A program made the translations under genes and the position numbers. Shown here in pieces: positions 22,101-61,011 of a stretch of DNA of 61,969 nt (position 1 is its first letter; the number at the start of each line of letters is the position of its first letter). A model generated the notes under the pieces. The model saw nothing but the letters and a program-made list of their open reading frames with translations. It ran no database searches and was not told the origin of the DNA. Source of the DNA: Frankia sp. AgB32 (GTDB lineage: Bacteria > Actinomycetota > Actinomycetes > Frankiales > Frankiaceae); the NCBI RefSeq assembly GCF_023243045.1, contig NZ_JALKFX010000033.1:1-61969 (forward strand). The letters run 5' to 3'.

Positions 22101-23067
22101 CGATGAAACTGACGATCGGAACGGCCCGGGCGCCCAGCCCACCCTCGACGAAGTTGGTGACCTTCTGCACCTCGCGGGAGACGAACGCCTGGTCACCCAT
22201 GTTGTTCGCCAGCCACAGGATCAGCTCGTCGAGGAACAGGATGACCGCGTCGTAGCCGAGGTCCTTGGCATGCCGGGCGATCTCGGCGAGGCCGGCGTCG
22301 AGGGAGATGAACCCCTCGGCGTCCTCGCGCAGATCACGGTAGGTGTTCGCGAACCAGGACGAGAGCAGATCGGAGACCAGCCGGCGCCGCGCCGGGGTGT
22401 CCTGCGCGGCCGGGGCGAGCGCCGCGTCCAGCTCGGGCGCCGTCCAGGAGGCGTCATTGCCCCAGTCGTCCTGCTCGCCGTCACTGGAGCCGGTGCCGGC
22501 GCCAGCGCGGTTGAGCTCGGCCAGGAACCTCTCGTCGCCGACCCTGGCCCGGATGTTGCGAGCCTCGTCCAGCAGCGCGCCGGCGCGCTGCACGGCGGCG
22601 ATCGGCGCGTCCGGGCGCAGCGCGCGCAGATGATCGGTGTAGCCACCGAGGACGCGCTGCTCGATCGACTTCGCGCCGAGCAGGTGAAACGGAACCAGCA
22701 GGAACTTCTTGCCGGCCAGATCCGAGCCATGCTTGTTGAGAACATCGGTCAGCCGGTCGTCAAAGCTGTGGGCGGCCGGCTCGCCGCGCAGCAGCGCGTG
22801 CAGCACCGCCATGAAATGCGACTTGCCGGAGCCGAACGAGCCGTGCAGATAGACGCCCTTCGACGCCCCGGTGCTCACCGCCTGCGCGATCAGGCCGAGC
22901 GCCTCGTCGAAGTTCCCGACGAGCCGATCGGTCAGCACGTAGTCCCGCATCGTCGCGGCCGCGTCGGTGACACCCTCGGTCAGCTTGAGGACGAAGTCAC
23001 TGTCGGAGGTCCGCTCCGGAATATCGATGACCTCACGCAGCAGCGGCGGAGACGGCAAGCTGGTCAT
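19114..23067 (-). CDS. pglY: BREX type 2 ATPase PglY
   Basis: The 1317-residue protein has Walker A near its N-terminus, YLHGSFGSGKSHF (Lys82), and a Walker B-like VILFLDELILWL around residue 270, followed by a long helical body and a C-terminal segment that ends REGEISWRPAP-like. This matches PglY, the large ATPase of BREX type 2 (the counterpart of BrxC). It is thought to work with PglX and PglZ at phage DNA. It starts 70 bp after the pglX stop and overlaps pglZ by 4 bp. The length is near the family norm. Confidence 0.9.
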   Translation of the reverse strand: MTSLPSPPLLREVIDIPERTSDSDFVLKLTEGVTDAAATMRDYVLTDRLVGNFDEALGLIAQAVSTGASKGVYLHGSFGSGKSHFMAVLHALLRGEPAAHSFDDRLTDVLNKHGSDLAGKKFLLVPFHLLGAKSIEQRVLGGYTDHLRALRPDAPIAAVQRAGALLDEARNIRARVGDERFLAELNRAGAGTGSSDGEQDDWGNDASWTAPELDAALAPAAQDTPARRRLVSDLLSSWFANTYRDLREDAEGFISLDAGLAEIARHAKDLGYDAVILFLDELILWLANNMGDQAFVSREVQKVTNFVEGGLGARAVPIVSFIARQRDLRELVGEQVAGDVRLSFLDVLTLADGRFDKIVLEDRNLPLIANRRLLKPVDADAARAIEKAFETTAKVRAEVWETMLGGSAQIGADRDAFRLSYPFSPAFVDTLVHVSSALQRNRTALKLMRQLLVDHRGDLRLGQVVPLGDLWDVITRGADTPFTDVLKAEFDAAQKLYGRRLRPYLLDAEGLDEEALAQVRRARATGAAVDAVLATKVRRFTADDRLVKTLLLAALAPSVPALQNLTPRRLSALNHGSITSPIPGGEAGQVGKKVERWAGQFGEIKYLPVDGGDPGVGLELVGVEVDSILNSAVGYDSAGNRRALVRRLLVEELGVTLTGDAFGDRLDLVWRGSKRSAEVIFASLRGAELRDDQLAPIDPESWRLVVDYPFDDAGEPPVNARARIERLRGSGVQHRTVGWIPADLTASRLVDLGMLVRLDHLLAGGGHRFDSHAQHLSADDRQRARSVLKSRYDALLTKTKTTLRSAYGLTSKDETDVTADFHDHLRSLWPGLNPTLPLGASFRDAARRLVGDLLADQFPGHPDLDPDRTGVPVKLADLKLVLGYVRRAAEADGSSIEVAKVDRGPMRRIAPALGLGVMHEVRFELGREWVDHFTRCAAQAALDSGTGSGPGELRVADLLRWIDEPRARGLDDNVAYLVVAAFAEQTDRAWYRYGGLLSPPPELGTIGRDMTLRQQPLPSQADWAEAGERAQALFGVRPQPLLRGRLLRDFAQELVVKAERRRAAGQELVVALETHASELGLDLGTGTAAAGPAVEGTTGGRLRTARAARDLLLALDDAAPGPQLVERLARADLAGSAKRLLVSMSTAAEVAAAIRAAPWDDTFGVIAGLREPYDAQAHEILDRIRAVGAADENPLNPLATALGTARAEATALLRHAMAARSVEPKPPVVTPPVGPPRISVPVTPDPRLNVGGRPPTIPGVNPGLTTGKVADPADHTKAGATRQWRIRPDALDQTLAELRADVGDRPGEIEISWRPAP

Positions 23068-23137
23068 GAGACACCTCGGCGGGTCAGGCGAGCGGTCAGG
23101 TCATGCATCCGAGCACGGATGATACGGACGGTCCCCA

Positions 23138-26100
23138 TCACTTCTGCGCCGCTTTCCGGCCACGGCTGGCCGCCGGCGGGCGCCAGCCGGTGAGGTCATC
23201 GGCGGTCACGCCGTGGCGACCCATCGCGTCGGCGAGAAACGCGTCGTAGACCTCGGCGGGGGAGCCGTCGTAAAGCGGATCGACCTCGCCATGCCACTGC
23301 CGCACCCAGGGCATCACCTCCAGCAGCCCAGCGAGCAGCGGGGTCAGGCGCTCGGCACCCCAACCGTCGTTGTCCTGACGTTCGACGATCAGCGTCGCCA
23401 GCGCCTGGGCCTGCTCGCGGTGATCCCAACCGGCCCAGCCGATCAGCAGCGTCGGATCGTTGTCCGGCCCAGCCGGCTGATAGGAGATGAACCGCTCCTT
23501 GGGCACATCCAGCTTGCCGCGAGCCCGCCAGTAACTGACCTTGCGAAAGTCGGCCGGAGCGTACTTTGGCGGCACCGGAATGCGGTCGCGAATCTCCTTC
23601 GCGGCCTCCGGACTCGGGGCGGCATCCTCGGCGCGCTGCTGATCCCAGACCGACTCCCAGTCGGCCCGCTTGACCAGGCCGGAGTCCTTGTAACGCAAGG
23701 CAGCCGAGAACGGGACATGCTCGTTCTCGACCAGGTCGTTGACGACCTTGACCAGGTTCTCGCCCGCCCGGTAGATCTCGGCGACGGCCACGAAGTCCGC
23801 GTCGCCGGCCAGCTCGTCGGCCAGTCGGCCGGTGGTCCACAGCCGCGGCTGGACCATGCCATCGAGATCGGCGAACCACAGCTCGCGGGCCTCAAGCCGG
23901 TCGAGTAGCCAGCCCCGCAGCGCCGCGTCCTGGAGCTTGTCCCAGCCCTCGGTCGCCCACCGGCGCTTATGTTCGGGCCGCTCGATCAGCCCGATGTTCC
24001 GATCGGTCTCAATGACGGAGATCCGCTTCTCCACCAGCACCCGATACTCGGTGGGCCAGTGCACCGGCAGTTCAGTGATCGGGGTGGAACCATGGCGGAC
24101 GAACCACTCGGACGTCTCCTCGCCGGCCGCGATCTTCCGCGCCAGCACCACCTCGAACGCCCGCTCACCCAGCTTGATCTCCGGAACCTCGGCCATTGGC
24201 AGCGTCAGATCATCGGCAAGTAGCCGATACTGCCGATAGACCCGCCAGTCCAGCTCCTCCTGCAACGCAATCATCCGTACCCGGGCGGAAGCCCACTCGG
24301 CCTGGGCCACAGCCAACCGGGAGCGCGTCGGCACACCGTCTGCCGTCACCGACGCCGGGCTCACCGCCGTCAGCCGCTGTGCCAGCCCATCCAGCTCCTG
24401 AGCCAGTTCCAACGGACACTCCGTCGGAAGTGGGAACTCCTCAAGCTTTGTCCCGGTGAACTCATAGCGGTTCTCCCACGCCTCGTCCTGCACACCGCGA
24501 CCGATACCACTCCCACCCTTTGGCTGGCTGACCTGCTTGAGCCAGAAGCACGCCGTCGAGCTGTTCAACACCCCCAACAGCCGCAGATGCTCATCCTCTG
24601 ACGCCCCCGCCGGCAACTTAATCACCGGCGCCGATTGCTTGAAGACTTTTCCGCCTCTGTCAAGGGTGAAATTGTTGTGGGTCGCCACAAAAGCAAGAAC
24701 TATCGAAAATGGTACTCGAAGCTTTGATGCTGTGAGTCGACCAAATTCGGTCCATCGGAGGCCGCTTTCGATCTTCGTCCTGCCTCCGAATAGAATATTG
24801 TTAGAGAGTTCGCTACGGCCGACCCAGAGATACCTCAGCATCTCTGGAACGGTCGCGACGTCAATGGCGACTAGATCTGAGTCGTACGGAAATACTGTCA
24901 CTTCTGCCGGTATCCACGACCAGTCTCGCACCGAGTCTCCGACCACCATCGGTCGGGTCCACTCGACTGCGAGACGCTGCCTGCGCGCACTTATTTCGGG
25001 CAGCAGATAAATCTCGTCGGCGAGGGTAAAGCTAGTGATGCCGATCGAATGGGATTTCGTCGCCAATCGAGTATGATTATTCTCCTCGAGGAATTCCCGA
25101 AGTTCCCCGCTGCCTCCGCCACCCACGCTCCATGGATGAGTCGCCCACTGGCCGCGCTGAGAGTCGTTCGCGCTGACCCATTGGCTCTCCGAGTCGGGGC
25201 GGCTTACCTGGGTGACGATAGCCCTCCACACGGTGCCATCGGCTGGATCTTCAGGTTGCGCCGGTTCACCCCTGATACCTAGGACGGTACGGATCGTGCT
25301 GGAGCGCCTGGACAGGTTGCGCCGGCCCGCAAGAATCACAGTCGGCGTGCCGTGGTCAGGTATGTAGGCGCCAGAGGTGTCTATGATGTGTGTGAGTTCA
25401 ACAGCCGCTGCGAAGAATTCTTCGATCAATTTCTTGCCGAACTCGCGCTTCATGAACGAGTTCGAGGTAATCTGTCCGGTACGGCCGGCACTGTTTCCCT
25501 CGGCGTCCGCGGCCTTAGCTAGCTCAAACAGGCGCTGCGCAAAGGGTACCGAGAGGGCGTATTTTCCTGCGCAGGTGCTGTACATTTCGCGGTACAGCTG
25601 ATTGAGCTTCTTGTCCTTGACAGTTATGTAGGGCGGGTTGCCAACGACGGCGTGATAGCGACCCTCTTCGAGGATGCTGGGGTGCTCGGCGAGGTCCTCG
25701 GTGGTATAGGAGAACTCGGCGAGCTCGTCGCGCTCCTCACCGAAGAGATCGAGCTGGCGGTGTTTGATCAGCGAGTCGCCGGTGGCCACATGCAGTGGGA
25801 ATGTGTAGCCGGCTGCCGCGCCCAGAGTCCTGAGCCGTGCGGCTCGAAGCGCCTCGACCGTCAAGCGGAACCTGGCGATCGCCGTCGCATATGGGTTGAT
25901 GTCCACGCCGTGCACCGCGTCCAGGGCCAAGTGGACCCGCTCGAAGACGTCGCGGTCGGGGGCGTGTTTTTCCCATTCGGCGAGGAGGCGGCGGAAGGCG
26001 CCGAGGAGGAAGTGGCCGGAGCCGCAGGTGGGGTCGATGAGTTTGACGACGTCGTGGCCGAACTCGTCGATGGCCGGGGTGAGCGTCAGGTCGAGGATGA

Positions 26101-26731
26101 ACTCCTCGACGAACTCCGGGGTCTGGAGCAGGGCGTATTTCTTGCGGACGTCCTCGGAGAGGTCCTGGTACATGTCGCCGAGGAAGCGGGTGTCCCAGGT
26201 GGCGTCGGTGAAGTCGTGGACCAGGGTGCCGGTCTCGGTGCGTCGTCGCCAGAAGGCCAGGAGGTTCTTCGCCGCGTCGTGGGTGGGCGGGATCTGGAAC
26301 AGGGCGTTGTGGCGCCGGTCGAACAGGGCCGCGCCGACGGGCACCTTGGCGATCTCGTCGAAGCCGGCCAGCAGCCAGTCGCGTGCTGTCTTTTCCGGGT
26401 GCCGGGTGTAGAAGTCCTCGGTGCGTTCCTCGGCGAGGGTGAGCCGGGCCGTGGTGGGGCCGGCGAGGAACGGGTCGCCGATGAGGCCGTTGTCCTCGCA
26501 GAAGCGGACGAACACGGTGCCCAGCACCCAGGCGACCGCCGCCTGGGTGACCCGCTCGCCGAGCCACGCCGACCAGGTCGCCGCCGTCCGGCCGACCTTG
26601 AACGCCCGGTCGTACTCGGCGCGCAGCCGCGTCCCGACCTCGGTCACCTCGTCCACCTGGGCCCGCAGGTCCTTCTCCAGGTTCTTCACCTGTCGCTGGG
26701 CATCCTTCAGCAGCGCCACCCGGTCGATCAC
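23138..26731 (-). CDS. pglX: BREX type 2 adenine methyltransferase PglX
   Basis: The 1197-residue N6-adenine DNA methyltransferase has motif [10 protein letters not shown] (from Asp233) and the catalytic NPPY (Asn365-Tyr368). It methylates one strand of an asymmetric site and so marks self DNA for BREX. I prefer GTG 26731 ([14 protein letters not shown]...) because GGGGAGAG lies 4 nt upstream and PglX proteins begin with this helix; a start 36 nt earlier is open. Residues about 370-695, the region expected to hold target recognition, are encoded by DNA of clearly lower GC (24650-25640) than both flanks, suggesting a swapped specificity segment. No G-tract that could cause phase variation, as in Streptomyces pglX, is visible. 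Confidence 0.9.
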
Positions 26732-26791
26732 AAAGCTCTCCCCATCCACCCAACGAACGTCAGCCAACGAACAGCAGCGGCTTTCCTGCGG

Positions 26792-29700
26792 TCAGGACGC
26801 TGTCCCCGCCCGGCCCGGCTCGGCGCCGCCGGAGCGGTGCCGGTTGATCGCCCAGGAGTCGGGCAACGCGACCCATTCGCTTTCGGTCGTCACCTGGACC
26901 AGGGCGCCGTCGAGGCGTGGGGGGCGGGTCGGCTCGGTCGTCGGGCACAGCACCCAGACACCCCGCCGGCCCGCGCGGGCCCGCTCGGCGAGCGCGAACA
27001 GCAGGCCCATGCCGCGTCCGTCGTAGCGGCCGAGGACGCCGGCGTCGTGCAGCAGCAGCGGCGCCGGCCCGTGCGGGCCCGGCTGGCCGGGGGCGTCGAC
27101 GAGTTCGGCGAGCAGGGGAGCGGCCCGGTCCCAGGCGGCGCGGACGTATTCGGCGAGGTTGCCGGCGGCGCGGCTGCCCGGCTCGGCGGCGTCGGCGCGC
27201 AGGATCGTGGCCCACGCCGGCCTGGGGCGGGGGTCGACCTCGGCGTGCAGCGCGTCGAGGAAGACGGCGGCGATGTCGACCGGCTCGGCGGCGAACCGGT
27301 GCGGCAGGGCCAGCTCCGCGCGGGCGCGCAGGTAGAGGCTGCGCCGGATGGTGAGCGCACGGAATCCGCCGGACTCGGCGGCGGCGATGAGCCGCTGCTC
27401 GGCGAGCGACGCGGCCGCCCGGTCGGGGCTGTCGAACATCAGCCGGGCCGGGCGACTGCCCGTGTCGGTGGAGCGGCGGGCCGTCGGCGTGGCCCGCGAA
27501 CCGAGGCCGGTGGAGGTCAGCAGGCGGTAGGGCGGCACGTAGCCGTCGCGGGCCGCGTCCCATTCGAGGACGAACCCGGCGTCCGTCAGCGGGCGGTCGA
27601 GCGCGGGATGCGGCGGCAGTTCGGTCGTCAGCGCGGGGAAGCGGGTGGCCACGCGTTCGTGGATGACCGCCACCTCCAGCAGCGGCCGGTCGGGGCGTTC
27701 GGCCAGGCCGTCCGGTCGCGCCGGGATCAGCGCCGGCCGCGGCGGCAGCACCCCGGCCTGCGCCAGGCGCAGCGCCCGGACGAGGCCCAGATCGCGCGGG
27801 TAGATCTCCAGGCGGGCGTTCGCGGCGGCGTTGCGGGACGCGGCGGCGGCGAGCCGCACGAGGCGCTGCTCGTCGAGCGCCGGCAACCCGGCCAGCCCGT
27901 CGACCGCCGCCGCGGCATCGCCCGCCAGCCCGGCCTCGTCCGCGCCGCCTCCGGCCGGGGCGGCGCGGACGGCTGCGAGCTCGCGCAGCACGGTCGCCGG
28001 GGCGGGGATCTCCTCGGCCTTCGCGAGCCGGTCGGCGGCTTTGCCCAGGGCGATCGCGTAACCGAAGAGGGCGGGCGCGGTCGGCGTGAGTGGGCTGTCG
28101 TCCTCCGTCGCTTCCAACGCCACCAGCGTCCGGTCGTGGAACTTGCGGCGCGCGAGAACGGGCTCGCTGTCCAGATCGACGGTCTCCAAGGCGGCGCGGA
28201 CGGCGGCCGCCGCCAGCGCCCGGCGCTGCGCCGGTGGCCGCCGGCTGCCATGGCGGGCCAGGACGGCGGTCGCCAGGTCCTCGAAACCCATCACCCTGCC
28301 GGCGTCACCGAGGATCTCGACCAGTTCGTCGCGGACCACGCGGACCGCATCGTCGATATGCCAGGCCTTACGACGCGCCGACAGCACCTGCGCGATACGG
28401 CCCGGGGTGACGCCGACCCGCTCGGCCACCTGCTGCTGCGGCGCCCACAGCGGCACGGCGGGGAGCTGCCCGTCATCGTCGGGAAGTGCGAGCAGCAGCC
28501 GGGTCGCCTCCCGTTCTGTGGCGTTGCGGCCGCCGGGAAGGGCGGCGGGCAGCAGCCGGGCGGCGAGATCCTCGACGGGCAGCCGGGCATAGTCAGGCGC
28601 CACCGCGGACACCTCGGCATCCGGCGACGGCCGCCGCTCGGTCCCGCCCGGCTCGGCCGTCGCCGTTGCTGTCGCCGGGGGCGGCGTCGTGCCGGCGGCG
28701 GCGAGGACGCGGCGCCACTGGCGAATGCGGGACTGCAGCTCCTGCCGGGTCTTCGCGCCCGTACCGGGCAGGCTGATGATCTCCTTGGAACCCAGGGCGA
28801 GCAGGTCGCTGACGGTCGTCGCGTTCAGCCGGTGCGCGGCGGAGACGGCCCGCGGCGAGAGACCCGCGGCCTCCAGCGGGGTCTCGGCCGCCGCCGCCGC
28901 GGCGGCCGCGTCGCGGGCCCGCCGCGCGGACTCCTCATCGGTGACGCCCGCGATCGCCGTCCGCCCAGGAACCCGCGCGAGAGATGCGTGTTCCGTCGCC
29001 CGCGCGCCATCGCTGGCCGCCGGATGACCGGTGATCGCCGGCGGGGTCGAGTCCGCCGCGCGGAACACGGCCTGCCAGGCATCGCGCATGTCCTTCAGCG
29101 CGGGGAAGCGGCTGGCCGCGTCCCGGTCGAGCGCGCGCAGGAAGAAGGAGGTGAGGCCGGCGCGGACCGCGGGGTCGAACGCCTCCGTCGCCAGGGTCGG
29201 CGGGCCCTCGGTGAACCGGTCGAGGGCCGATCCGTTGCCCCACATCGGCAGCTCACCGGAGGCCATCTCGTGCAGGGTGACCGCCAGCGCGTAGCGCTCC
29301 GCGTGGTCGTCGTAGGCGGTGCGGGTGCCGGCGCCGAGGAACGGGTCCAGGTAGCGGGGGGTGCCGGCGGCGAGGTCGCGCACCGAGTGGTTGGCCAGCG
29401 AGAAGTCGATGAGGACCAACTGGTACGTGCGGTTCGGCCGGCGGCGGATGACGATGTTGTCCGGCTTGAGGTCGCGGTGGACGACGCCCTCGCCGTCCAG
29501 ATAGTCGACCGCGCCGAACAGATAGTCGCTGTAGGTCTCCAGCTCGTCGACGGAGAGTCGTCCCTCGCGCAGTTTGCGGGCGACGGTCTGCTCGCCCGCA
29601 TGGTCGAGGACGAGGACGGTGCGCCCGCCGACCAGCAGCGTGTCCGGCCGGGCCAGGCGGATCACCCGGGAGTCGCCGAGGCCACGCAGCACCGCGGCCT

Positions 29701-31582
29701 CGTGCGCCAGCCGCGCCGCGCGCTCGTCGGACAGGGCGATCTTGAGAACCTCGTCGTGGCCGGTCTTCTCGTTGTGCGCGAGAAACGCCCGGCTGGTCGA
29801 GCCGGTGCCGAGGCGCTCCCTGACCCGCCACTCGCCACCGAGCAGATCGCCGCGCTGGGCCTCCAGCGGGTCGGGCTCCGGCTCGTCCTGGCCCGGCGGG
29901 TTCGTCGCCGGGGTGTCCCCGGAGTTGCCCGACCCCGCGGCCGGGTCGGGGCGGGTGAGTTCGTCCTCGACCAGCAACAGCCAGTCGAGGAACTCGCCGA
30001 CGCTCGCGTGCCGGTCCTCGGGCAGCGGATGGGTGGCCCCCGCGACCAGGTCGTTCGCCGTCTCGGTGAGTGCGTCGACGACCTCGGCGGGATGCAGCCC
30101 GCCCGACCGCTCCAGGCGGGCCTTCAGCGCGTTGGGGCCGTCCGCGGGCGGCTGACCGGTCAGGACGAGGTAGGCGAGGGCGCCCAGGCCGAAGACGTCG
30201 ATCCGGATCGCGTCCGGTCTGGGCGCGCCGATCTCGGGCGCAAGGTAGCCGCCGGAGGCCAGCTCCAGGTGCGGGAGCAGCCGGGCTGCCGGCTCGAGGG
30301 CGCCTGCCGCTGCTCCCTTCGCAATCGTGCTGGTCAGGACGCCGGTGCTCGAACCGGAGCCGGCGTCGCGGGCCGCAGCCTGCCAGTCACTGACGATCAG
30401 ACGGGGCGTGAGCCAGCCCTGCTCGTCGCTGCGCCGCCGGCCCGAGGGCACCACCAGGACGCTGCGGGCGGCCAACGCCCGGTGATAGAGGCGCCGGCCA
30501 TGCGCGTAGGCGATGGCCTCCGCCAGCTGGCGGATCATGTTGAGCCGGGTGCCGGCGTCGAGGCGGTCGCCGTAGCGGTCGAGATAGTGGTCGAGGCGCA
30601 GCTCGTCCGGCCGATGCCGGAAGATGAGCGCCGGGCCGGCCTCGTGACTCTCCAGGCCGTCGACCTGCACGATGCCCGGGTGGTTGATCCCGTGCAGCAC
30701 CTCGAACTCGCGGCGGGCGGCCGCCTCACGGCTCGCCCGTTCCGCCTCGCCCGCCGCCCGCTCGACGAGGTAGATCCGCACCCGACGCCGCTCGGAGGCA
30801 ACCTGGGCATGGGCGGCGTGGTGGTCCTGCCAGGTCGGACCCGAGTCGAACGCCGGGAACTCCAGCTGCCAGGAGCCGACCTGCTGGTGACGGCGGCTTC
30901 GCGCGATCCCGACCGCGGGCAGCAGCTTCGCGAGCGCCTTCGAGATTTCGGGGCTGACCCGGCGCCGCTCGTCCTGCACGGGCGCGTCCAGGAGATCGGA
31001 CCAGATCGACGGCAGCGTGAACGCGCCGGCGGCACCCGACGCCGACGCTGACGCCGGGCCGAAGATCCAGTGCAGCTGGTTGGCGGGGAGGTCGACCCGC
31101 AGGGTGGGGTTCGACAGGAAGACTGCCGGTTGAATGAACGGGACCTTTACCCGGCTCCTGCTCTGGGCACGGTTGGCGTTCTCCAGCAGGGAGCGCAGCT
31201 CCTTGGACTTCTGGTTCGCCAGGTGCACGGGGTTGTCGAAGATCCGCGGCTGGCCGGACGCGCGGTGCTGGGTCCAGTTCGATCCCGATGCGGTCAGCCG
31301 CCCGGCGAGACTCTTGATCTCGATGAGGTAGACCCCGCCGCGGGCGATGACCAGCAGATCGACCTCACGGATGTGGCCGGTCGTCGCGGTGAACGTGAAG
31401 TTCGACCACGCCCGGTAGGGCTCGGCGTCCGGCAGCAGCGCCCTGACCTGCTCCAACGCCTCCCGCTCATGCGGAAACTGCGACGGCGTGACCGTCACCC
31501 ACCGGCCGTCCCCCTCCCGCACGCCGACCCCCCGCCGTCGTTGCGACGCCGACCCCCACGCGTCGCGCCCTCTCTGCGCCAA
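26792..31582 (-). CDS. pglW: BREX type 2 kinase PglW (NERD plus two kinase domains)
   Basis: The 1596-residue first gene of the BREX operon begins with a NERD nuclease-like domain (HIREVDLLVIARGGVYLIEI, with the Asp and Glu-Ile-Lys of that fold). A kinase-like domain follows whose catalytic loop is HRALAARS (His367, Ala369 in place of the catalytic Asp), so it is probably a pseudokinase. Next comes a complete Ser/Thr kinase with VVHRDLKPDN (Asp704) and DFS instead of DFG. The last 700 residues are helical with short HhH-like (LPGTGAKTRQEL) and winged-helix stretches. PglW is the proposed control kinase of the Pgl system. The TTG start at 31582 is supported by a -10 box 6 nt upstream, but a later GTG is possible. 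Confidence 0.9.
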   Translation of the reverse strand: MAQRGRDAWGSASQRRRGVGVREGDGRWVTVTPSQFPHEREALEQVRALLPDAEPYRAWSNFTFTATTGHIREVDLLVIARGGVYLIEIKSLAGRLTASGSNWTQHRASGQPRIFDNPVHLANQKSKELRSLLENANRAQSRSRVKVPFIQPAVFLSNPTLRVDLPANQLHWIFGPASASASGAAGAFTLPSIWSDLLDAPVQDERRRVSPEISKALAKLLPAVGIARSRRHQQVGSWQLEFPAFDSGPTWQDHHAAHAQVASERRRVRIYLVERAAGEAERASREAAARREFEVLHGINHPGIVQVDGLESHEAGPALIFRHRPDELRLDHYLDRYGDRLDAGTRLNMIRQLAEAIAYAHGRRLYHRALAARSVLVVPSGRRRSDEQGWLTPRLIVSDWQAAARDAGSGSSTGVLTSTIAKGAAAGALEPAARLLPHLELASGGYLAPEIGAPRPDAIRIDVFGLGALAYLVLTGQPPADGPNALKARLERSGGLHPAEVVDALTETANDLVAGATHPLPEDRHASVGEFLDWLLLVEDELTRPDPAAGSGNSGDTPATNPPGQDEPEPDPLEAQRGDLLGGEWRVRERLGTGSTSRAFLAHNEKTGHDEVLKIALSDERAARLAHEAAVLRGLGDSRVIRLARPDTLLVGGRTVLVLDHAGEQTVARKLREGRLSVDELETYSDYLFGAVDYLDGEGVVHRDLKPDNIVIRRRPNRTYQLVLIDFSLANHSVRDLAAGTPRYLDPFLGAGTRTAYDDHAERYALAVTLHEMASGELPMWGNGSALDRFTEGPPTLATEAFDPAVRAGLTSFFLRALDRDAASRFPALKDMRDAWQAVFRAADSTPPAITGHPAASDGARATEHASLARVPGRTAIAGVTDEESARRARDAAAAAAAAETPLEAAGLSPRAVSAAHRLNATTVSDLLALGSKEIISLPGTGAKTRQELQSRIRQWRRVLAAAGTTPPPATATATAEPGGTERRPSPDAEVSAVAPDYARLPVEDLAARLLPAALPGGRNATEREATRLLLALPDDDGQLPAVPLWAPQQQVAERVGVTPGRIAQVLSARRKAWHIDDAVRVVRDELVEILGDAGRVMGFEDLATAVLARHGSRRPPAQRRALAAAAVRAALETVDLDSEPVLARRKFHDRTLVALEATEDDSPLTPTAPALFGYAIALGKAADRLAKAEEIPAPATVLRELAAVRAAPAGGGADEAGLAGDAAAAVDGLAGLPALDEQRLVRLAAAASRNAAANARLEIYPRDLGLVRALRLAQAGVLPPRPALIPARPDGLAERPDRPLLEVAVIHERVATRFPALTTELPPHPALDRPLTDAGFVLEWDAARDGYVPPYRLLTSTGLGSRATPTARRSTDTGSRPARLMFDSPDRAAASLAEQRLIAAAESGGFRALTIRRSLYLRARAELALPHRFAAEPVDIAAVFLDALHAEVDPRPRPAWATILRADAAEPGSRAAGNLAEYVRAAWDRAAPLLAELVDAPGQPGPHGPAPLLLHDAGVLGRYDGRGMGLLFALAERARAGRRGVWVLCPTTEPTRPPRLDGALVQVTTESEWVALPDSWAINRHRSGGAEPGRAGTAS

Positions 31583-33504: not shown

Positions 33505-34764
33505 ATGCGAATCAAACAGGCCCGCAGGACAGGTGCCGTGGCAATCGCTGCCGCGCTGGCGGGCGTGCTGGGAACTAGTACGGTCGCGCAGGCCGGATCG
33601 CCAGGTGACCCCCCTCATCCCGCGTTACGCGCGGCCCCAGAAATTCTTGACTCGTCGGGCGGGCTGTCGACTTCCCTTGACCAAGGCCTTCGCCGGGTGG
33701 CCCCCAATTGCTATGGCGGAATCGAGCAGACGGGCGACGGTGAACTGACCGTTCACGTCGTCGATGACCCTGGCTGCACGCCTGCCGCGACGAGCGCGAT
33801 CGCGAGACTGACGGGTTCCAGCTCGACTGCGGTGAAGACCGTCTCGGCGACCTACTCGCTGCGGTCACTCGAAGCCAAACGCGACACAATTACCAAGAAC
33901 CGCGCCGCGTTGCGCAGCAACGGGGTCAGCCTGCGCGACTGGGGCGTGAGTATCTCAGATAATCGCCTTCACGTAGGCCTCGCGACAGTCACACCGGCGG
34001 CGACCAGCCGTATGGGCGCGCTCGTTGCCGGAGACAGCGCCCCCGCTGCCAGAAGCAACGGCCTCGTCGCCGGAAACAGCGGTGACCCCAGCATCGAGGT
34101 CACGCAGGACGCCAGCTGGGTACAGACCGATCGCATCGTTGACTCGGCTCCCTGGTACGGCGGCGATCGAATCGTCGGTCCTGTTGGCGCTTGCACCTCG
34201 GGATTCAGCGTCTTCGACAACCAGCACCGCACGTTCAACACGACGGCCGGACACTGCGGTTATGGCACCTACCTACAGGGCGGTCACCCCTACGGTAGGA
34301 CCATCAACGCGAACTACTACGATGATGGGCCGACCGACGCACAGATCATTTCGACCTATCCGGCGAGCGCCGCGGGCCGGATCTGGACCACGCAGAACGG
34401 ATCGAACCCCGTCAAGGGCTGGATCAACAACCAGATCGGTGGCAACAAGGTCTGCGCTAACGGCTCGTTTTCTGGCGAACACTGTGGCGGGAGAATCAAC
34501 GCGACCGACCAGTGCCTCTATTTTGACGACGCCGCCCGGACGATCTGCCATTTGGACACCGTCTACTCGCCGGGGTTCCAGACCGTGGGAGGTGACAGTG
34601 GAGGTCCCGTCTACAATCATGCAGGCGTCACGGCGGACAGTGGCCCCGACATCTATGCCCGTGGCCTCGTTACGGGTGCGTACAACGGAAACAAGAGCCT
34701 GTGGGTGTTTACCCCGATGAATATCTGGACCGCTCAACTGGGCGTGACTGTTCTCGGTGGTTAG
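33505..34764 (+). CDS. Secreted trypsin-like serine protease with propeptide
   Basis: The 419-residue preproenzyme begins with a signal peptide (RIKQARRTGAVAIAAALAGV to VAQA) and continues with a region of roughly 170-190 residues that should be the propeptide chaperone. The chymotrypsin-fold domain then has its triad in order: His250 in TAGHCG, Asp278 in DDGPTDAQII and Ser365 in GGDSGGPV. Cysteine pairs around the His and Ser suggest disulfides. The layout resembles alpha-lytic protease and Streptomyces S1 proteases, which are exported and self-process. The substrate is unknown. Codon use is less GC-biased than in the polyketide genes downstream. Confidence 0.85.
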   Translation: MRIKQARRTGAVAIAAALAGVLGTSTVAQAGSPGDPPHPALRAAPEILDSSGGLSTSLDQGLRRVAPNCYGGIEQTGDGELTVHVVDDPGCTPAATSAIARLTGSSSTAVKTVSATYSLRSLEAKRDTITKNRAALRSNGVSLRDWGVSISDNRLHVGLATVTPAATSRMGALVAGDSAPAARSNGLVAGNSGDPSIEVTQDASWVQTDRIVDSAPWYGGDRIVGPVGACTSGFSVFDNQHRTFNTTAGHCGYGTYLQGGHPYGRTINANYYDDGPTDAQIISTYPASAAGRIWTTQNGSNPVKGWINNQIGGNKVCANGSFSGEHCGGRINATDQCLYFDDAARTICHLDTVYSPGFQTVGGDSGGPVYNHAGVTADSGPDIYARGLVTGAYNGNKSLWVFTPMNIWTAQLGVTVLGG

Positions 34765-35068
34765 CGGCTCCTTGCAGTTGACCGGATGTCGAGTCGGTCC
34801 GGTTTCTCCGGGAGCAGTGCGCGAACGTGACCACGCGATGCAGGTGCCCCACCGCCACGGACGCCCCCGGCCCGCCGGACGCGCCGCCCGGTACGCCTGG
34901 CGCCGCCACCGCCTGGGCGAGGCGCGTCTGGCAGCCGGCGAGGAACTGCTGGATCTGCGCCGCGCGGGCCGGGCGCGGCGCGCCGGGCGCGGGAGCCGGC
35001 CGGCCGAAGCGGTGGGGCTGAGCCTGGGGTGTGCCGCAGCGTTCGCAGCAACCGGAGCCGGGGGGCAC
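34709..35068 (-). CDS. Possible small zinc-ribbon protein (uncertain)
   Basis: The minus-strand frame reads GSGCCERCGTPQAQ, a possible half zinc ribbon, then a short helical stretch (AAQIQQFLAGCQTRLAQAVA). Just upstream in the same frame is WDGTAWTEQRR, reminiscent of the WDG-x-x-W box of DUF2510. No convincing start or ribosome binding site is present and the frame runs into the protease gene on the other strand. It may be a gene remnant rather than a live gene. Confidence 0.2.
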   Translation of the reverse strand: MPPGSGCCERCGTPQAQPHRFGRPAPAPGAPRPARAAQIQQFLAGCQTRLAQAVAAPGVPGGASGGPGASVAVGHLHRVVTFAHCSRRNRTDSTSGQLQGAANHREQSRPVERSRYSSG

Positions 35069-35453
35069 CCGCGGACGTCGCTGCTCGGTCCACGCGGTGC
35101 CATCCCACGTCGACCGGCAGGCCGGCCGCGGAACGCACCACCGCCGGCACCGTCACGGTGGGAACACCAACATGCGCGCCGCCCGCCAGCATCGCGGCAG
35201 TACTCATCCCAGCCCCCCTGAGCGCGGCCCGTCGAACCGGCGGTGGCCCCTCCACCTCGCGGGCGGACGCCGTCCCGACACGTCCGGATGCCACCAGCGC
35301 GAGATCGGTACCTGGCCTGCGCCCGCCGTCGATCAGGCTCGCAGAGCAGGAAAAATACCTCACCGCATCTGCGTGCAAGCAGGCGGTCATCCCGCCGCGC
35401 CGGTCGTGGTACCGCGCTGTGACGCTCCCGGTGCCGTCGACGACAATGTCCGC
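34765..35453. other. Intergenic region, no supported gene
   Basis: Apart from the doubtful minus-strand frame at 34709-35068, nothing in this 690 bp has recognisable features. It separates the protease from the lipoprotein gene. Confidence 0.4.
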
Positions 35454-36092
35454 ATGCGAGGTCGACGGTCCCGGTTCGCGACGGTGTCAGGGGTGGGAGT
35501 GGCACTGCTGCTGGCGGCGTGTGGCGGTTCGGCGGGCTCCGCCGGGAGCGGGGTCTCGCCGGCGGCGGGGAGCGCGGCCGTGGGCTCCGGGGCGCCGCCG
35601 ACCGGCGCGGCACCCGGCGGGACGGCAGCCGCCGGGGCGGCGTCGACAGGTGCCGGCGGCCCGACGGGCGCGGCGCCGCGCTGCGCGGCGGCGGATCTCG
35701 GGGTCGCGTTCGGGTCCGCGGGCGTGAGTACGGGGGACCAGCGGCAGCGGCCGATCATTCTGACGAACCGGGCGGGGCGCGGCTGCGCGGTGACCGGGTT
35801 CCCCGGTGTGCAGCTGATCGCCCGGGACGGGTCCGACTACTTCGACCTGGTCCGCTCGTCGATCGTGCGCCCGACGCGGATCGTGCTGGCACCGGGCGGC
35901 ACCGCCCGCGCCACGATGCGCTACATGCCGGCGCCGCCCGGCGAGACGGGCGCCTACGACGTGGTGCGCGTCGTCGTCACCGTGCCGGACGCCACCACGT
36001 CGACGTCGCTGCCCTGGGACGGCGGCCCGGTGTCCGACCAGTCCGGCGCCACCCACCCGGGGACCTACATCGAGGCGCTCACCGCCGGCTGA
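35454..36092 (+). CDS. DUF4232-type lipoprotein
   Basis: The 212-residue protein has a lipoprotein signal peptide (VALLLAACGG, lipobox Cys at residue 23), a 50-residue Gly/Ala/Thr-rich linker, and a C-terminal beta-sandwich with AADLGVAFGS, PIILTNRAGRGCAVTGFPGV and LIARDG. This is the DUF4232 pattern of actinobacterial surface lipoproteins, whose function is unknown. ATG 35454 places the positive n-region (MRGRRSR) directly before the hydrophobic core. The gene is monocistronic by context. Confidence 0.75.
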   Translation: MRGRRSRFATVSGVGVALLLAACGGSAGSAGSGVSPAAGSAAVGSGAPPTGAAPGGTAAAGAASTGAGGPTGAAPRCAAADLGVAFGSAGVSTGDQRQRPIILTNRAGRGCAVTGFPGVQLIARDGSDYFDLVRSSIVRPTRIVLAPGGTARATMRYMPAPPGETGAYDVVRVVVTVPDATTSTSLPWDGGPVSDQSGATHPGTYIEALTAG

Positions 36093-36740
36093 ACCCAACC
36101 GCGCCAGCGCGCGAGGCCCGAACGCGGTGTGCCGTTCCGGTGGGCGGCATTCATCGACCCACCGCTGCACTGCCCGTCCACGGTGAGACGTCTGTCACGC
36201 GCCCGGACGGGAATCGTCACATGGACATCCGTGACAACGGATATCCGGGCAGGGGCGGGGGGGGGGGGGGGGGGGGGCCGCGCCCGGGGGGGGGGGGGGG
36301 GGGGGGGGGGGCGCGGGGGGGGCGCCCCCCCCCCCCCCCCGGGCGGTCGCGGCGCCGGTTCGGCGCGGCTTGCGGCCGCAACCGTTGCACATTTGTATGG
36401 CAAATATTTCAGGTTGATGCCGCGGTGCTCTCGGCGGGTCAACATTACGATCCGTCGATCTTCCGAAGGTTATTGGGGCGGGCCGGCTCCAGCCGTGGTC
36501 GCTGGACCTTCCGCCAACGTCATGAGATTGTGTGGTGGACAGTGGAAATGCACCTCCCGGGGTGAGAGATGCGCCCGTCGCCGTGCTTCCTCCAGGTGAA
36601 AGGCCGAGGTGGAGGCGTAGCGCGTGGGCGCTTCCCGTGGCGGTGACCGCCGTCGTGGCCAGAACCTGCGTCAACGCTGATGGTGTCAGCCCGACCGTCC
36701 TCGGTGCATACCTTCGTGGCTCGGTGCGCGCTGAATCGCG
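36093..36740. other. Intergenic region with homopolymer block
   Basis: No gene. The centre is the G/C homopolymer block at 36257-36340. To its right, 36380-36470 is relatively AT-rich and may hold the promoter of the LuxR-type gene (TACGAT at about 36445 resembles a -10 box), but no matching -35 is clear. Confidence 0.4.
36257..36340. repeat. Extreme G/C homopolymer block
   Basis: The plus strand has runs of 21 G (36257-36277), 26 G (36286-36311), 8 G (36315-36322) and 16 C (36325-36340), separated by short CG-rich spacers. The G and C runs could pair as a hairpin, and the G runs could form quadruplexes. Runs this long are very rare in a finished bacterial sequence and could be a sequencing or assembly artefact. 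Confidence 0.9.
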
Positions 36741-36748
36741 GGAGGTGA

Positions 36749-38092
36749 GTGGGAGTGAATCCGGTAATGAGGCCCCTTCAGTGTGCGGCGGTGGACCCGT
36801 CCCAGCGAACCAAGTATCCTCCCAACTCCGCGAGAGCGCTGGCTGCTGCTGAACCAGGCCGATTGCCCGGATACCTGCCGGGACTTAAACCGGGCCCGAG
36901 CGCGGCGCAGTGGTCCCGGTCGGCGGGGCCGCGGGACGCGCTCGGCATAATCACCATGGTCTTCCAGGGGAACGGTCGGTCCGACGTCATTCATCGCGCC
37001 GACGCACTGCTGAGAAAGGATGACTTCCGGCGCGACCCGGAATGCGTCTGGCTCGGCCTGCTCGCGTTGACCTACGCGGACAGTCCGGCGTCCATCGACT
37101 ACCACCTCGATTCCGCCGCGAGATCCGCCCGAGGGCAGGATCCACGCCGCCACCATCAGATCATCATGCTGGCGCGGGCGCATGCGGTGCTGCTGTCCGG
37201 CAACGCGAGCCGGGCTCGGCTGCTGCTGGAGACCCTGCTGCGCCAGGTGCCGCCGCGGCCGTTGCTGCTCCTGGCCGCCGCCTGGCTGGTCGAGGCACAG
37301 ATCGAGCTCGGCGCGCTCGATCGGGCGCACCAGGTTCTCGCCAGTTACGACCAGGCCGGCGCGGCCGACGGCGAAGGGCTGGACTGCCCGCACCTGCTGG
37401 CCGCGCGGGGCGCGCTGCACCTGGCCGCGGGGCGCTACCGCCAGGGCATCGACGACTACCGTGCCTGCGGAAAGCTGCTGACCTCGCTGAACGTGCAGAA
37501 TCCCGCCGTCATACCGTGGCGTTCGCGGGCCGTGCCGGCGGCGCTCGCGCTCGGCCGCGTCGACCTCGCCGTGGCGCTGGCCGAGAACGAGCTGGCCGCG
37601 GCGCGGGTGTGGGGTGCGCCGCGGGCGGTGGGCCGGGCGCTGCATGTGCTCGCGCTCGCCCAGCGCGGCTGCGACCCGGCCGTGCTGCTGGAGGAGTCGG
37701 CCGAGCTGCTCGCCCTCGCGCAGGCGTCCGCCGAGCAGGTCCGGGTGCTGCATGAGCTGAGCCGCGTGCAGGCCGCGCGGGGCCAGCGGGCGGCCGCCCG
37801 GAACTCCCTCGACACCGCGCTCGCGCTCGCCCGGGACTGCCGCAACCCGCTGTGGGTGCACCGGCTGGAGGGAGCCCGGCGCCAGCTCGACGGCGCGGCC
37901 GCACCGGTGCGGCTGACCAGGCAGGAGCGTCGGATCGCCCGCCTGGCCTGCGCGGGAAACACCAACCGACTAATCGCGGCCGAACTCTTCCTGACTGTGC
38001 GCACAGTGGAGTTCCACCTCTCCAACGTGTACCGCAAGCTCGGCATCAGCGGACGTCGGGAGCTTCGCGCCGCGCTGGGCACAGTCGACTGA
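36749..38092 (+). CDS. LuxR-family cluster regulator with TPR-like body
   Basis: The 447-residue protein has about 370 residues of helical TPR-like repeats and a C-terminal LuxR/GerE DNA-binding domain (LTRQERRIARLACAGNTNRL ... VRTVEFHLSNVYRKLGISGR). It lacks the N-terminal ATPase of full-length LAL/MalT regulators, so it is a shortened member. It is the first gene of the polyketide region and probably activates the biosynthetic operon. The start is GTG 36749 or GTG 36755; GGAGG at 36741-36745 favours the second by spacing. Two hairpins follow the stop, so it has its own transcript. Confidence 0.8.
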   Translation: MGVNPVMRPLQCAAVDPSQRTKYPPNSARALAAAEPGRLPGYLPGLKPGPSAAQWSRSAGPRDALGIITMVFQGNGRSDVIHRADALLRKDDFRRDPECVWLGLLALTYADSPASIDYHLDSAARSARGQDPRRHHQIIMLARAHAVLLSGNASRARLLLETLLRQVPPRPLLLLAAAWLVEAQIELGALDRAHQVLASYDQAGAADGEGLDCPHLLAARGALHLAAGRYRQGIDDYRACGKLLTSLNVQNPAVIPWRSRAVPAALALGRVDLAVALAENELAAARVWGAPRAVGRALHVLALAQRGCDPAVLLEESAELLALAQASAEQVRVLHELSRVQAARGQRAAARNSLDTALALARDCRNPLWVHRLEGARRQLDGAAAPVRLTRQERRIARLACAGNTNRLIAAELFLTVRTVEFHLSNVYRKLGISGRRELRAALGTVD

Positions 38093-38398
38093 AAATGCCA
38101 GGCGGCGCAGCTGCGCCGCGCACGGCCCGGCTCTCCTCGGAGGGGCGGGCCGTCGTTATTTCCGCCAGCGCTCTCCTGGATGATCGAACACGGAATACCA
38201 TGGCCGCCAGCCGTTTCCTACGGATGGACCACAGGTTTCATATCGTGATCTTGATGTGTGGCCGGCGTCATGCGAGAGTTGTTTCAGACGGCTTCCCGAA
38301 GCGGTGGCCACGATCATTCCGGGAATCTCCCCAGCTAGTTCACTTGGCAGGTCGGCAGCCGTTAACAGGCGTGCGGTGTCGGCGGGAAGGGTGCAGCG
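38093..38398 (+). other. Terminator and leader region of the polyketide operon
   Basis: The left part holds the terminator hairpins of the regulator gene. The remainder is relatively AT-rich (38160-38300) and should contain the promoter of the biosynthetic operon, but I see no clear consensus pair. Confidence 0.4.
38102..38160 (+). terminator. Double hairpin terminator after the LuxR gene
   Basis: A perfect 18 bp palindrome (GCGGCGCAGCTGCGCCGC, 38102-38119) is followed by a second stem (GGCCCG at 38124 pairing with CGGGCC at 38146-38151) and then a T-rich end (GTTATTT). Together they make a convincing end of transcription 10 nt after the stop codon. Confidence 0.6.
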
Positions 38399-38899
38399 TT
38401 GACCGTTCAGGAGCAGGGGAACGACCTCGTCGCGCAGATTAAGGAGCTGACCGCGCGAGTCGAGCTGCTTTCGACCGTGCGGGAGATTACCGCGCTACGA
38501 CACGCGCTGCCCCGTCGCATCAACGAAAACCGGTGGGACGAGGTGGGCGAGCTGTTCAGCGAGAACGCCCGCCTCGACTATGCCCACCTGGGCCAGGCGG
38601 CTGGCCGCGAGGAGATCCAGCGGTACTTCTCCGGGTTGCCGGCGATGATCGAGGAGAACAGTCCCGCCGCACACGTCATGGTGAAGCAGTTCGTGCACGC
38701 GCACGACGTCGAGGTGCAGGCGGAGACGGCGACCGGGGTGTCCTTCTTCGAGGAGAAGGTCGTCTTCGACAGCGAGAGCTCCTTCGTCGCCGGCAAGTTC
38801 ACCGACGCCTACGCCCGCGAGCACGGCCGCTGGCTGTTCTCCCACATCCGGCTCGAGCTGTTCTGGGTCATTCCGTACCAGCGCGGCTGGGAGCGCTGA
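38399..38899 (+). CDS. SnoaL-like (NTF2-fold) protein, first copy
   Basis: The 166-residue protein has an N-terminal helix, RRINENRWDEVGELFSENAR and LDYAHLGQAAGREEIQRYF, then VKQFVHAHDVEVQAETATGV and RWLFSHIRLELFWVIPYQRGW: the SnoaL_4/NTF2 cone fold. In aromatic polyketide pathways such proteins act as cyclases, hydroxylases or ring-modifying enzymes. Three copies occur in this cluster. The TTG start follows GGGAAGG at 38384-38390. It is the first biosynthetic gene of the long operon; its specific step cannot be told from sequence. Confidence 0.7.
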   Translation: MTVQEQGNDLVAQIKELTARVELLSTVREITALRHALPRRINENRWDEVGELFSENARLDYAHLGQAAGREEIQRYFSGLPAMIEENSPAAHVMVKQFVHAHDVEVQAETATGVSFFEEKVVFDSESSFVAGKFTDAYAREHGRWLFSHIRLELFWVIPYQRGWER

Positions 38900-38937
38900 G
38901 GCACCGACCGCCCGGCGGACGAGGAGGAGATCACGAC

Positions 38938-39363
38938 ATGCTCCAGCAGAACACCACCAAGCGCATCGGCTACTGGTTTCTCCACCTGCACGAACGCTTC
39001 GAGGAGGGGACCGCGACGGCGCTGCGCGACGAGCGGCTGACCCGGCGGCAGTGGCAGATCCTGCACGCGCTGGCCATCGGCGTCGACTCCGTCGCCGCGC
39101 TGGACGCGGCGTTCGCCCCGTTCCTGCGGGTGGACGGGGTGGCGACGTACCAGCCGATCGTCGACGAGCTGACCGGCCGCGGCTGGGCCACGACCGAAGC
39201 CGGCCGGACCACGCTGACCCCGGCCGGCAGCGCCGCGCACGACCGGGCCGACGTGCTGGTCGAAGCACACGCCGCGCACTCGCTGCGGGGGATCGACGAG
39301 GAGGAGTTCGCCCTCGCCAACGCGGTCCTCGCGCGGATCTCCGACAACCTCGACGACGCATGA
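38938..39363 (+). CDS. MarR-family regulator
   Basis: The 141-residue protein has the MarR winged-helix order: RLTRRQWQILHALAIGVDSV, VATYQPIVDELTGRGWATTE and RTTLTPAGSAAHDRADVLVE, with dimerising helices at both ends. MarR proteins bind short palindromes and release them on binding phenolic ligands, so the polyketide or an intermediate may be the signal. ATG 38938 follows GAGGAGATC. The gene overlaps the next one by 4 bp (ATGA), an unusual place for a regulator inside a biosynthetic operon. Confidence 0.75.
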   Translation: MLQQNTTKRIGYWFLHLHERFEEGTATALRDERLTRRQWQILHALAIGVDSVAALDAAFAPFLRVDGVATYQPIVDELTGRGWATTEAGRTTLTPAGSAAHDRADVLVEAHAAHSLRGIDEEEFALANAVLARISDNLDDA

Positions 39364-40592
39364 CGACGCTGGCGGAAGGGGAGCCGACCGTGCCCGAGAC
39401 CATTCCCGACCGGGCGGAACTCGTCGAAAGAGCCGCGAAGCTCGTCCCGCTGCTGCGCTCGCGCGGCCCGTGGATCGACGACAACCGCCGCCTTCCCGAC
39501 GACGTCGTGCGTGCCCTGGAGGAGTCCGGCCTGCTGCGCATGGCCGTGCCGGTGCAGTACGGCGGCTACGAGTCGGACGTGCGGACGTTCGTCGACGTGC
39601 TCGCGGAGATCGCGACGGGCAACGGCTCGGCCGCGTTCTGCCTGTCGGTGTACAGCGCGTTGACGTGGATGGCGGGGTTGTGGCCCGACCAGGCGCTCGA
39701 CGAGGTGTTCACCCGTCCTGACGTACGGGTGACCGGGACCACCGCGGCCACCGGAACCGCCCGGACGACCGAGGGCGGCTACCTGCTCAGCGGCCGGTGG
39801 ACCTTCAACAGCGGCATCCTGCACGCGCAGTGGAAGATCTGCGTCGCGATGCCCACAGGCGGGGACGGGGGCGGGGACGGCGACGACCCCGCCGCGGCCC
39901 TGCCGGTCTTCGCGCTGGTGCCGGTCGGCGATCTGCAGATCGTGGACGACTGGTACACCAGCGGGCTGGAAGGCTCGGGCAGCGTCACCACGGTGGCGCA
40001 GGAGGTGTTCGTCCCCAGCCACCGGGTGATCACCGGAGCCGACTTCTACCAGAACCGGATCAGGTCGACGGTCAACGCGAGCAAGCCGGCCTACGCGGTA
40101 CCGATCCTGGTGACCACGAACGCGATCCAGATCGGCCAGCTCGTCGGCGCCGGCCGGGCGGCACTGGCCGCCTTCCTGGAGCGGCTGCCCGGGCGCCCCC
40201 TGACCTACACCGACCACGCCAGCCAGCGCGACGCCGCCGTCACCCACCTCCAGGTCGGCGAGGCGGCGCTGCTGATCGAGGACGCCGAGCACCGGGCGCG
40301 GCGGTTCGCCGAGTCGATCACCGACAAGGTGGCCCGGGCCGAGGCGTGGACCACGGCCGAGCGGGTCTCCGCCCGGGTCCAGATCGGCTGGGTCGCCCGC
40401 CAGGTCAGGGAGGCGGTGCGGATCCTCGCCGACGCCAGCGGCGGCTCCTCGGTCCACCGCCACGTCCCGATCTCGCGGATCCACCGGGACACCACCGCCG
40501 CCGCCCTGCACGCGATGATCACGCCGAGCACGAACATCGAGCTCTACGGCCGGTCGCTGTGCGGCCTCAAGCCGAACTCCGTCTACCTCTGA
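39360..40592 (+). CDS. ActVA-ORF5-like flavin hydroxylase (acyl-CoA dehydrogenase fold)
   Basis: The 410-residue enzyme has the acyl-CoA dehydrogenase/HpaB-type fold: DDVVRALEESGLLRMAVPVQ, then the beta domain GTARTTEGGYLLSGRWTFNS, VFVPSHRVI, and a C-terminal helical half with DASGGSSVHRHVPISRIHRD. It resembles the oxygenase parts of two-component flavin monooxygenases in aromatic polyketide pathways (ActVA-ORF5, and the NcnH and HsaA types), which hydroxylate phenolic rings using reduced flavin from a separate reductase. No reductase gene is visible in the window, so one must be supplied from elsewhere. ATG 39360 overlaps the MarR stop. Confidence 0.75.
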   Translation: MTTLAEGEPTVPETIPDRAELVERAAKLVPLLRSRGPWIDDNRRLPDDVVRALEESGLLRMAVPVQYGGYESDVRTFVDVLAEIATGNGSAAFCLSVYSALTWMAGLWPDQALDEVFTRPDVRVTGTTAATGTARTTEGGYLLSGRWTFNSGILHAQWKICVAMPTGGDGGGDGDDPAAALPVFALVPVGDLQIVDDWYTSGLEGSGSVTTVAQEVFVPSHRVITGADFYQNRIRSTVNASKPAYAVPILVTTNAIQIGQLVGAGRAALAAFLERLPGRPLTYTDHASQRDAAVTHLQVGEAALLIEDAEHRARRFAESITDKVARAEAWTTAERVSARVQIGWVARQVREAVRILADASGGSSVHRHVPISRIHRDTTAAALHAMITPSTNIELYGRSLCGLKPNSVYL

Positions 40593-40646
40593 CCCCCCGC
40601 GAGTTCCGCGGGCCCACCGCGGCCAGACGAGATCCAGGAGTCACGC

Positions 40647-42131
40647 ATGGACACTTCCGTCGTCGTCGTGGGCGCCGGTCCGACGGGCCTGATGCTGGCA
40701 GCGGAGCTGCGGCTGGGCGGTGCCGAGGTGGTGCTGCTGGAACGGCTGCCGGAACCGACCGGTGAGTCCCGGGGCATCGGTTTCACCCTGCGCACCATGG
40801 AGATCTTCGATCAGCGTGGGCTGCTGCCCCGGTTCGGCGAGCTGGCCACGAGCACGGCCGGTCACTTCGGGGGCATCCCGCTGGATCTTGGCGTGCTGGG
40901 CGCGACGCACGAGGCCGCGCGCACCGTGCCCCAGTCGACCACCGAGGCGGTGCTGGCGGCGCGGGCCAGCGAGCTGGGCGTGCGGATCCTGCGCGGACGG
41001 ACCGTCACCGGCGTCGAGCAGGGCGACGATCACGTCACCGTCACCACCGCCGAGGGCACGACCGTCACCGCGCGCTACCTCGTGGGCTGCGATGGCGGGC
41101 GCAGCGTCGTGCGCAACGCCGCCGGGTTCGACTTCCCCGGCACCCCGGCCACGACCGAGCTGTTCCTCGCCGACCTGCGCGGGGTGGACCTGCCGCCCCG
41201 GATGAGCGCGCAGCAGGTGCCGGGCGGCATGGTCATGACGGCGAAGCTGCCCGGCGGAGTGCACCGCATCATCGTCGGCGAACGCGGGGTGCCGCCGCGC
41301 CGGCGCACCGGCCCGCCGGCGTTCGCCGAGGTCGCCGACCTGTGGAAGCGGCTCACCGGCATCGACGTCGCGCAGGCCGAACCCGTGTGGGTCAGCGCGT
41401 TCGGCGACGCCGCCCGCCTGGTCACCGAGTACCGCCGCGGCCGGGTGCTGCTCGCGGGCGACGCCGCGCACGTGCACCTGCCCGCCGGCGGCCAGGGCAT
41501 GAACACCGGCATCCAGGACGCGCTCAACCTCGGCTGGAAACTCGCCGCGGTGGTGCGCGCGACGGCGCCGGAGGCGCTGCTGGACACCTACCACGACGAG
41601 CGGCACGAGGTCGGCCGTCGGCTGCTCGCCAACACCCGGGCGCAGGGCCTGCTCATCCTCGGCGGGGAGGAGGTCGCGCCGCTGCGTGAGGTCCTCACGG
41701 AGCTCGCCGACCATCCGGAGGTGGCGCGTGACCTCGCGGCGCGGGCGAGCGGGCTGGACGTCCGCTACCCGGCCGCCGGCGACAGCCCGCTGCTCGGCGC
41801 GCGGATCCCGCAGCTCGCGCTGACCCGCGCCGGGCGCGACACGACGGTCTTCGAGCTGCTGCGCGGCGGCCGCGGAGTCCTGCTCGACCTGGCGGACAAC
41901 GCGCGGCTGCGGGCCCGGGCCGAGGGTTGGCGCGAGCAGGTCGCCGTGGTCACCGCCGAGGTGCGCGCGGCGGCGGACACCCGTCGCCTCGACGGCACGA
42001 CAGCGGTGCTCCTGCGCCCGGACGGCTACGTCGCCTGGGCGGCTCCCGGCAGCTACCAGGACCTTCCGACGGCGCTGCGCCGCTGGTTCGGACCTGGTCG
42101 CGGCACCGGGCGCCCTGCGCCCCTGGACTGA
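40647..42131 (+). CDS. FAD-dependent aromatic monooxygenase (UrdE/PgaE-type)
   Basis: The 494-residue class A flavoprotein has [19 protein letters not shown] (dinucleotide motif at the N-terminus), [11 protein letters not shown] (DG motif), and [20 protein letters not shown] with [16 protein letters not shown] (GD motif), then a C-terminal thioredoxin-like domain. This is the PHBH-fold of polyketide hydroxylases such as RdmE and PgaE. Its position directly before the TcmI-type cyclase and the minimal PKS matches urdE/lanE/pgaE in angucycline clusters, where the enzyme hydroxylates C-12 to start quinone formation. Substrate assignment is by synteny and remains to be shown. Confidence 0.8.
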
Positions 42132-60307: not shown

Positions 60308-60339
60308 CCCGACGGCGACTCCGGACAGGAGACCACCCC

Positions 60340-60924: not shown

Positions 60925-60950
60925 CACGGCCCCGGCGGTCGCCGGCGCCG

Positions 60951-61005
60951 GGCTGATCGCCGGGAATCGCCGGGAATCGCCGGCCCGTGCGGGCGCCGCT
61001 ACGAT
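60951..61005 (+). promoter_or_regulatory. Tandem repeat and leaderless promoter of the second TetR gene
   Basis: ATCGCCGGG occurs three times in tandem (about 60956-60983, unit CGGGAATCGC). Downstream is TACGAT (61000-61005), ending exactly 6 nt before GTG 61012 with no ribosome binding site, so the transcript is probably leaderless. The repeat sits in the -35 region and may be an operator. Confidence 0.5.
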
Positions 61006-61011
61006 GGTCCG

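Follow-up and report, generated by a model that had tools for sequence, protein, structure and literature searches.

Locus and tract

The window analysed here is the whole of contig C201, 61,969 bases long, from the draft genome of Frankia sp. AgB32 (G000; 6,682,039 bases in 274 contigs). It contains a G/C tract lying between two genes that are both on the plus strand. The last gene to the left of the tract encodes a DUF4232 protein (positions 35031 to 36092), and the first open reading frame to the right, taken from its earliest GTG start (36749 to 38092), encodes a LuxR-type GerE DNA-binding domain. This regulator is followed by genes for an acyl-CoA dehydrogenase, an FAD-binding hydroxylase, two ketosynthases, a short-chain dehydrogenase and a polyketide cyclase, a gene set that we interpret as a type II polyketide cluster. 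On the minus strand of the left half (12418 to 31582), six adjacent genes match the PADLOC models PglW, PglX, BrxC/PglY, PglZ, BrxD and BrxHI; together they look like a full set of genes for BREX type 2 (Pgl) phage defence.

The tract itself is a block of 95 bases without A or T (36252 to 36346, not assigned to a strand), in which four homopolymers are separated by short GC islands: G21 at 36257 to 36277, G26 at 36286 to 36311, G8 at 36315 to 36322 and C16 at 36325 to 36340. Direct reading and a run scan agree on these positions, and thus on the 21 G, 26 G and 16 C that a sequence-only reading had placed at 36257 to 36340. The same reading had a LuxR gene about 400 bp downstream, which holds as well, with the regulator frame opening about 410 bp after the tract. 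The scan of all 61,969 bases returned no homopolymer of at least 8 other than these, and the longest G or C run elsewhere in the window is 6. Under a first-order model of the window, the expected number of G runs of 21 or longer is 5e-7 and that of C runs of 16 or longer is 1e-4, so the runs in the file are far beyond chance. The absence of A and T is by itself less odd than the homopolymers, since A/T-free stretches reach 62 bases in 58,001 bases taken from the single-contig genomes G003 and G005.

As written, the block would fold at -38 kcal/mol as DNA (z -2.58). Its segment 36296 to 36340 is a near-palindromic GC string, 84% identical to the tract's opposite strand. The sequence at the right edge is ordinary and can form a strong GC hairpin at 36343 to 36379 (plus strand) according to DNA folding; the piece from 36341 to 36410 folds at -20.4 kcal/mol (z -2.50). 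Folding of the left flank, 36180 to 36256, is unremarkable (z -0.96).

Similar tracts across the draft

Tracts of this kind are found throughout the AgB32 draft. With both strands counted, there are 219 G or C runs of at least 14, and 98 of at least 20. The latter form 77 sites on 62 contigs; of these, 44 are no more than 200 bp from a contig end, against about 1.6% expected from the share of the genome that falls in this zone. We inspected 82 sites having runs of at least 12, with 21 located at left contig ends, 25 at right ends and 36 in contig interiors (nine of the 98 runs of at least 20 fall outside the inspected loci and enter the 77-site tally only). A run of N occurs within 150 bp at 15 of the 36 interior sites; the window's tract belongs to the 21 interior sites without N. 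Tracts of this draft are also found inside genes. At the right end of the window's own contig there is a second A/T-free stretch of 58 bases (61899 to 61956), which may have the same origin as the tract.

Two sister sites were compared with relatives, namely one with N on contig C8 and one, interior and without N, on contig C220. On C8 (locus L024), 10 N together with G runs interrupt a gene, presumably for an acetyl-CoA carboxylase subunit, judging from its letters. The genomes G003, G005, G008 and G011 match across this place in one piece, and G010 matches in two pieces at one place. The linker that the relatives carry there is ordinary coding sequence, GC-rich and variable, consisting of a series of Gly-Ala repeats in G005 and being short in G003, and none of the five relatives' loci has a G or C run of at least 8.

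The second sister site gives a different picture. The left half of C220 (locus L003) matches G005 at 7.09 Mb, G003 at 6.02 Mb, G008:C68, G011:C99 and G010 at 5.07 Mb, and its right half matches G005 at 4.83 Mb, G003 at 0.70 Mb, G008:C197 and G011:C97. The two halves are thus about 2.3 Mb apart in both G005 and G003 (genomes taken as circular) and on different contigs in G008 and in G011. The alignments end at query position 1003 and resume at 1045 or 1051, that is, at the tract. The join at this tract is a false one, and contig C220 is likely chimeric (tract at L003:1501-1549, corresponding to G000:C220:23026-23074).

Comparison with other genomes

Runs of at least 14 number 0, 0 and 1 in G003, G005 and G010, which are the only single-contig genomes among those of the genus compared here, and the counts in G002, G006, G008, G009 and G011 are 0, 1, 0, 0 and 1. 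The drafts G001, G004, G007 and G012 hold 75, 173, 80 and 87. These counts indicate that the tracts follow particular assemblies and not a taxon. A restriction of the tract type to the tract-rich Frankia drafts was considered and rejected, as 48 of 396 genomes of the phylum (the AgB32 draft included) have one or more runs of at least 20. In one further genome of the phylum, G145, 52 G runs of at least 20 are present, several of them at contig starts, and it is probably another affected draft.

The practical consequence is a warning. The AgB32 draft and at least four related drafts each hold dozens of G/C tracts, beside which gene order, gene ends and cluster borders are not trustworthy, and searches for phase-variable or quadruplex-forming tracts should exclude such assemblies.

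Origin of the tract

We conclude that the block from 36252 to 36346 is an artefact of sequencing and assembly, with a probability of roughly 95%, and that the runs are very probably absent from the organism. This conclusion comes from the spread of tracts throughout the draft, their crowding at contig ends and N gaps, their near absence from single-contig genomes, and the two sister cases. The sequence-only reading had named an assembly artefact and a real, unstable tract tuning the LuxR gene as its two options. The first gains from the draft-wide spread, the 44 of 77 sites at contig ends, the N gaps at 15 of 36 interior sites and the sites on C8 and C220, while the second loses ground because the tract type is not tied to the regulator.

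The published record of the strain is compatible with short-read chemistry as the source. Frankia sp. AgB32 is described as sequenced on a NextSeq instrument with 2 x 150 reads, which were trimmed with fastp at default settings and assembled with SPAdes 3.13.0 (PMC9379372, PMC9760358). The text of the former gives 214 contigs, 6,667,069 bp and an N50 of 55,309 (PMC9379372), and a later table lists 274 contigs and 6.71 Mb (PMC9760358). Excerpts of two further papers state that G carries no label on the NextSeq 2000 (PMC11140927), and that poly-G tails are common in NovaSeq data, with trimming listed for NovaSeq and NextSeq (PMC12527978). Poly-G trimming for data from both instruments is among the functions of fastp; given the reported use of this tool, the poly-G tails must have slipped past it if they are the source of the tract. 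Our literature search returned no published account of poly-G tails bridging contigs, and we do not claim that none exists in print.

The proposed course of events is as follows. Two-colour short reads, in which the lack of signal is called G, would fail downstream of the DUF4232 gene, where the DNA is GC-rich and prone to form a hairpin, with the hairpin at 36343 to 36379 as a possible cause of the failure. Reads coming from the left would then end in poly-G and give the G runs. Reads coming from the right would give the C run, since they lie on the other strand and their poly-G tails are read as poly-C. The assembler might finally merge the tails, through the near-palindromic GC string, into a false bridge. 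We infer these read-level steps for the window's tract, together with the loss of ordinary sequence of some length at that point.

In several respects the tract resembles what two-colour Illumina poly-G tails (NextSeq, NovaSeq) leave in assemblies, namely long A/T-free G runs with a complementary C run opposite, crowding of such runs at contig ends and gaps, and their occurrence in some drafts of the genus with near absence from the single-contig genomes. It differs in that short GC islands interrupt it and its position is internal to a contig, with no N, that trimming should have reduced such tails, and that the direction of the runs fits in part only.

The direction of the runs deserves a closer description. 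The order in the window is G, G, G, C, and genome-wide in the AgB32 draft there are 48 placements of G then C against 15 of C then G. Among the 82 inspected sites, 18 of the 21 at left contig ends have C as their innermost run, as the artefact model predicts, but just 14 of the 25 at right ends have G, and the order at interior sites is not clear. When only runs of at least 20 are considered, 18 of those at right ends are C and 12 are G, which is opposite to the prediction of the model. A simple directional rule with G always on the left and C always on the right is therefore borne out only in part.

The idea of a shared trigger motif before the tracts was also discarded. A survey of hexamers in the 25 bp next to each of 95 tract edges showed G+C-rich words only. 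The string ATCCGGGCA followed by G stands directly before the tract in both the window and C220; it was seen by eye in none of the other listed flanks and was taken as chance.

Continuity of the two sides

An artefact between the DUF4232 side and the polyketide side can mean either that the two are neighbours with a stretch left unread between them or, as a special case, that the tract is a false join, the sides are not neighbours in the genome and contig C201 is chimeric. On the comparisons below we regard the former as probable and the latter as rather unlikely. The sister tract on C220 is itself such a false join. In the single-contig genome G003, moreover, the polyketide cluster is found at 7.13 Mb but the relative of a left-side gene (33505 to 34764) at 4.70 Mb, a separation that is compatible with a false join or with plain rearrangement. 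In addition, 12 loci of relatives contain or adjoin a DUF4232 match, and none of them yielded a match to an open reading frame from 36341 to 40650.

Against a false join stands contig C1013 of G007 (locus L111), which carries in one direction the DUF4232 gene (window positions 35453 to 36085), then the counterpart of window 59790 to 61671, and then that of 12418 to 22479. No G or C run of at least 8 is present on this contig. In a relative, DUF4232 hence has the far end of the right half as its neighbour. Had the join been random, this would be an improbable coincidence, and it suggests, as far as gene order can tell, that both sides belong to one neighbourhood. The arrangement would fit an extra polyketide region lying between DUF4232 and the far end of the right half, and a join that is correct though gapped. 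We grade adjacency no higher than probable because the two genomes do not share the same order of blocks and the G007 draft is also rich in tracts.

The order in G007, with DUF4232, the SnoaL/TetR block (59790 to 61671) and the BREX block (12418 to 22479), is a cyclic reordering of that in the window; this could reflect a mobile or circular element, or a rearrangement.

An orthologous junction that would give the true sequence was not found, as DUF4232 adjoins the window's regulator in none of the relatives' loci examined. Among the other 12 genomes of the genus, the best match to the regulator reaches 38% identity over part of its length. The spacer that follows DUF4232 in G007 aligns to the window at the gene ends only, leaving the flanks of the tract unaligned.

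Functional readings

It could be argued that the homopolymers are real and unstable, form a hairpin or quadruplex upstream of the LuxR-type gene, and alter the expression of the polyketide cluster through changes in length. The tract is indeed intergenic, at its distance of about 410 bp before the regulator frame, its folding energy as written is low, and the available portions of the literature describe phase variation driven by homopolymer tracts in other bacteria. However, tracts of the same class are scattered over the draft, within genes as well as beside gaps and contig ends, and are absent or nearly so from the single-contig genomes of the genus. Furthermore, 20 named loci carry relatives of the regulator, in several cases related in the DNA-binding domain only, and at 19 of these loci no G or C run is longer than 6. 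We consider this explanation extremely improbable. A mixed explanation, in which the tract is partly real, with a long G-rich hairpin or quadruplex element bounding the polyketide region on its left, blocking sequencing there and also acting on the LuxR-type regulator, is to be judged highly improbable too. No support for a function of the tract was found in the 20 loci with regulator relatives, the genomes of the genus or the draft-wide survey, and a regulatory role should not be read into it.

When set beside phase-variable G tracts such as those of Neisseria and Campylobacter, as the available portions of the literature present them, the tract is alike in being, as written, a long G run near a gene. 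It is unlike them in comprising several runs that end in a C run instead of one clean tract, in being of a type that occurs at 77 sites of one draft, and in not being conserved in the relatives examined.

The exception among the 20 loci is L116, from Nocardia neocaledoniensis (NZ_JARWOJ010000189.1), where runs of C16 and G20 lie at 151 to 194 of a draft contig, and so close to its start, about 2.3 kb upstream of the match to the regulator. These runs are probably the same kind of artefact, from another sequencing project.
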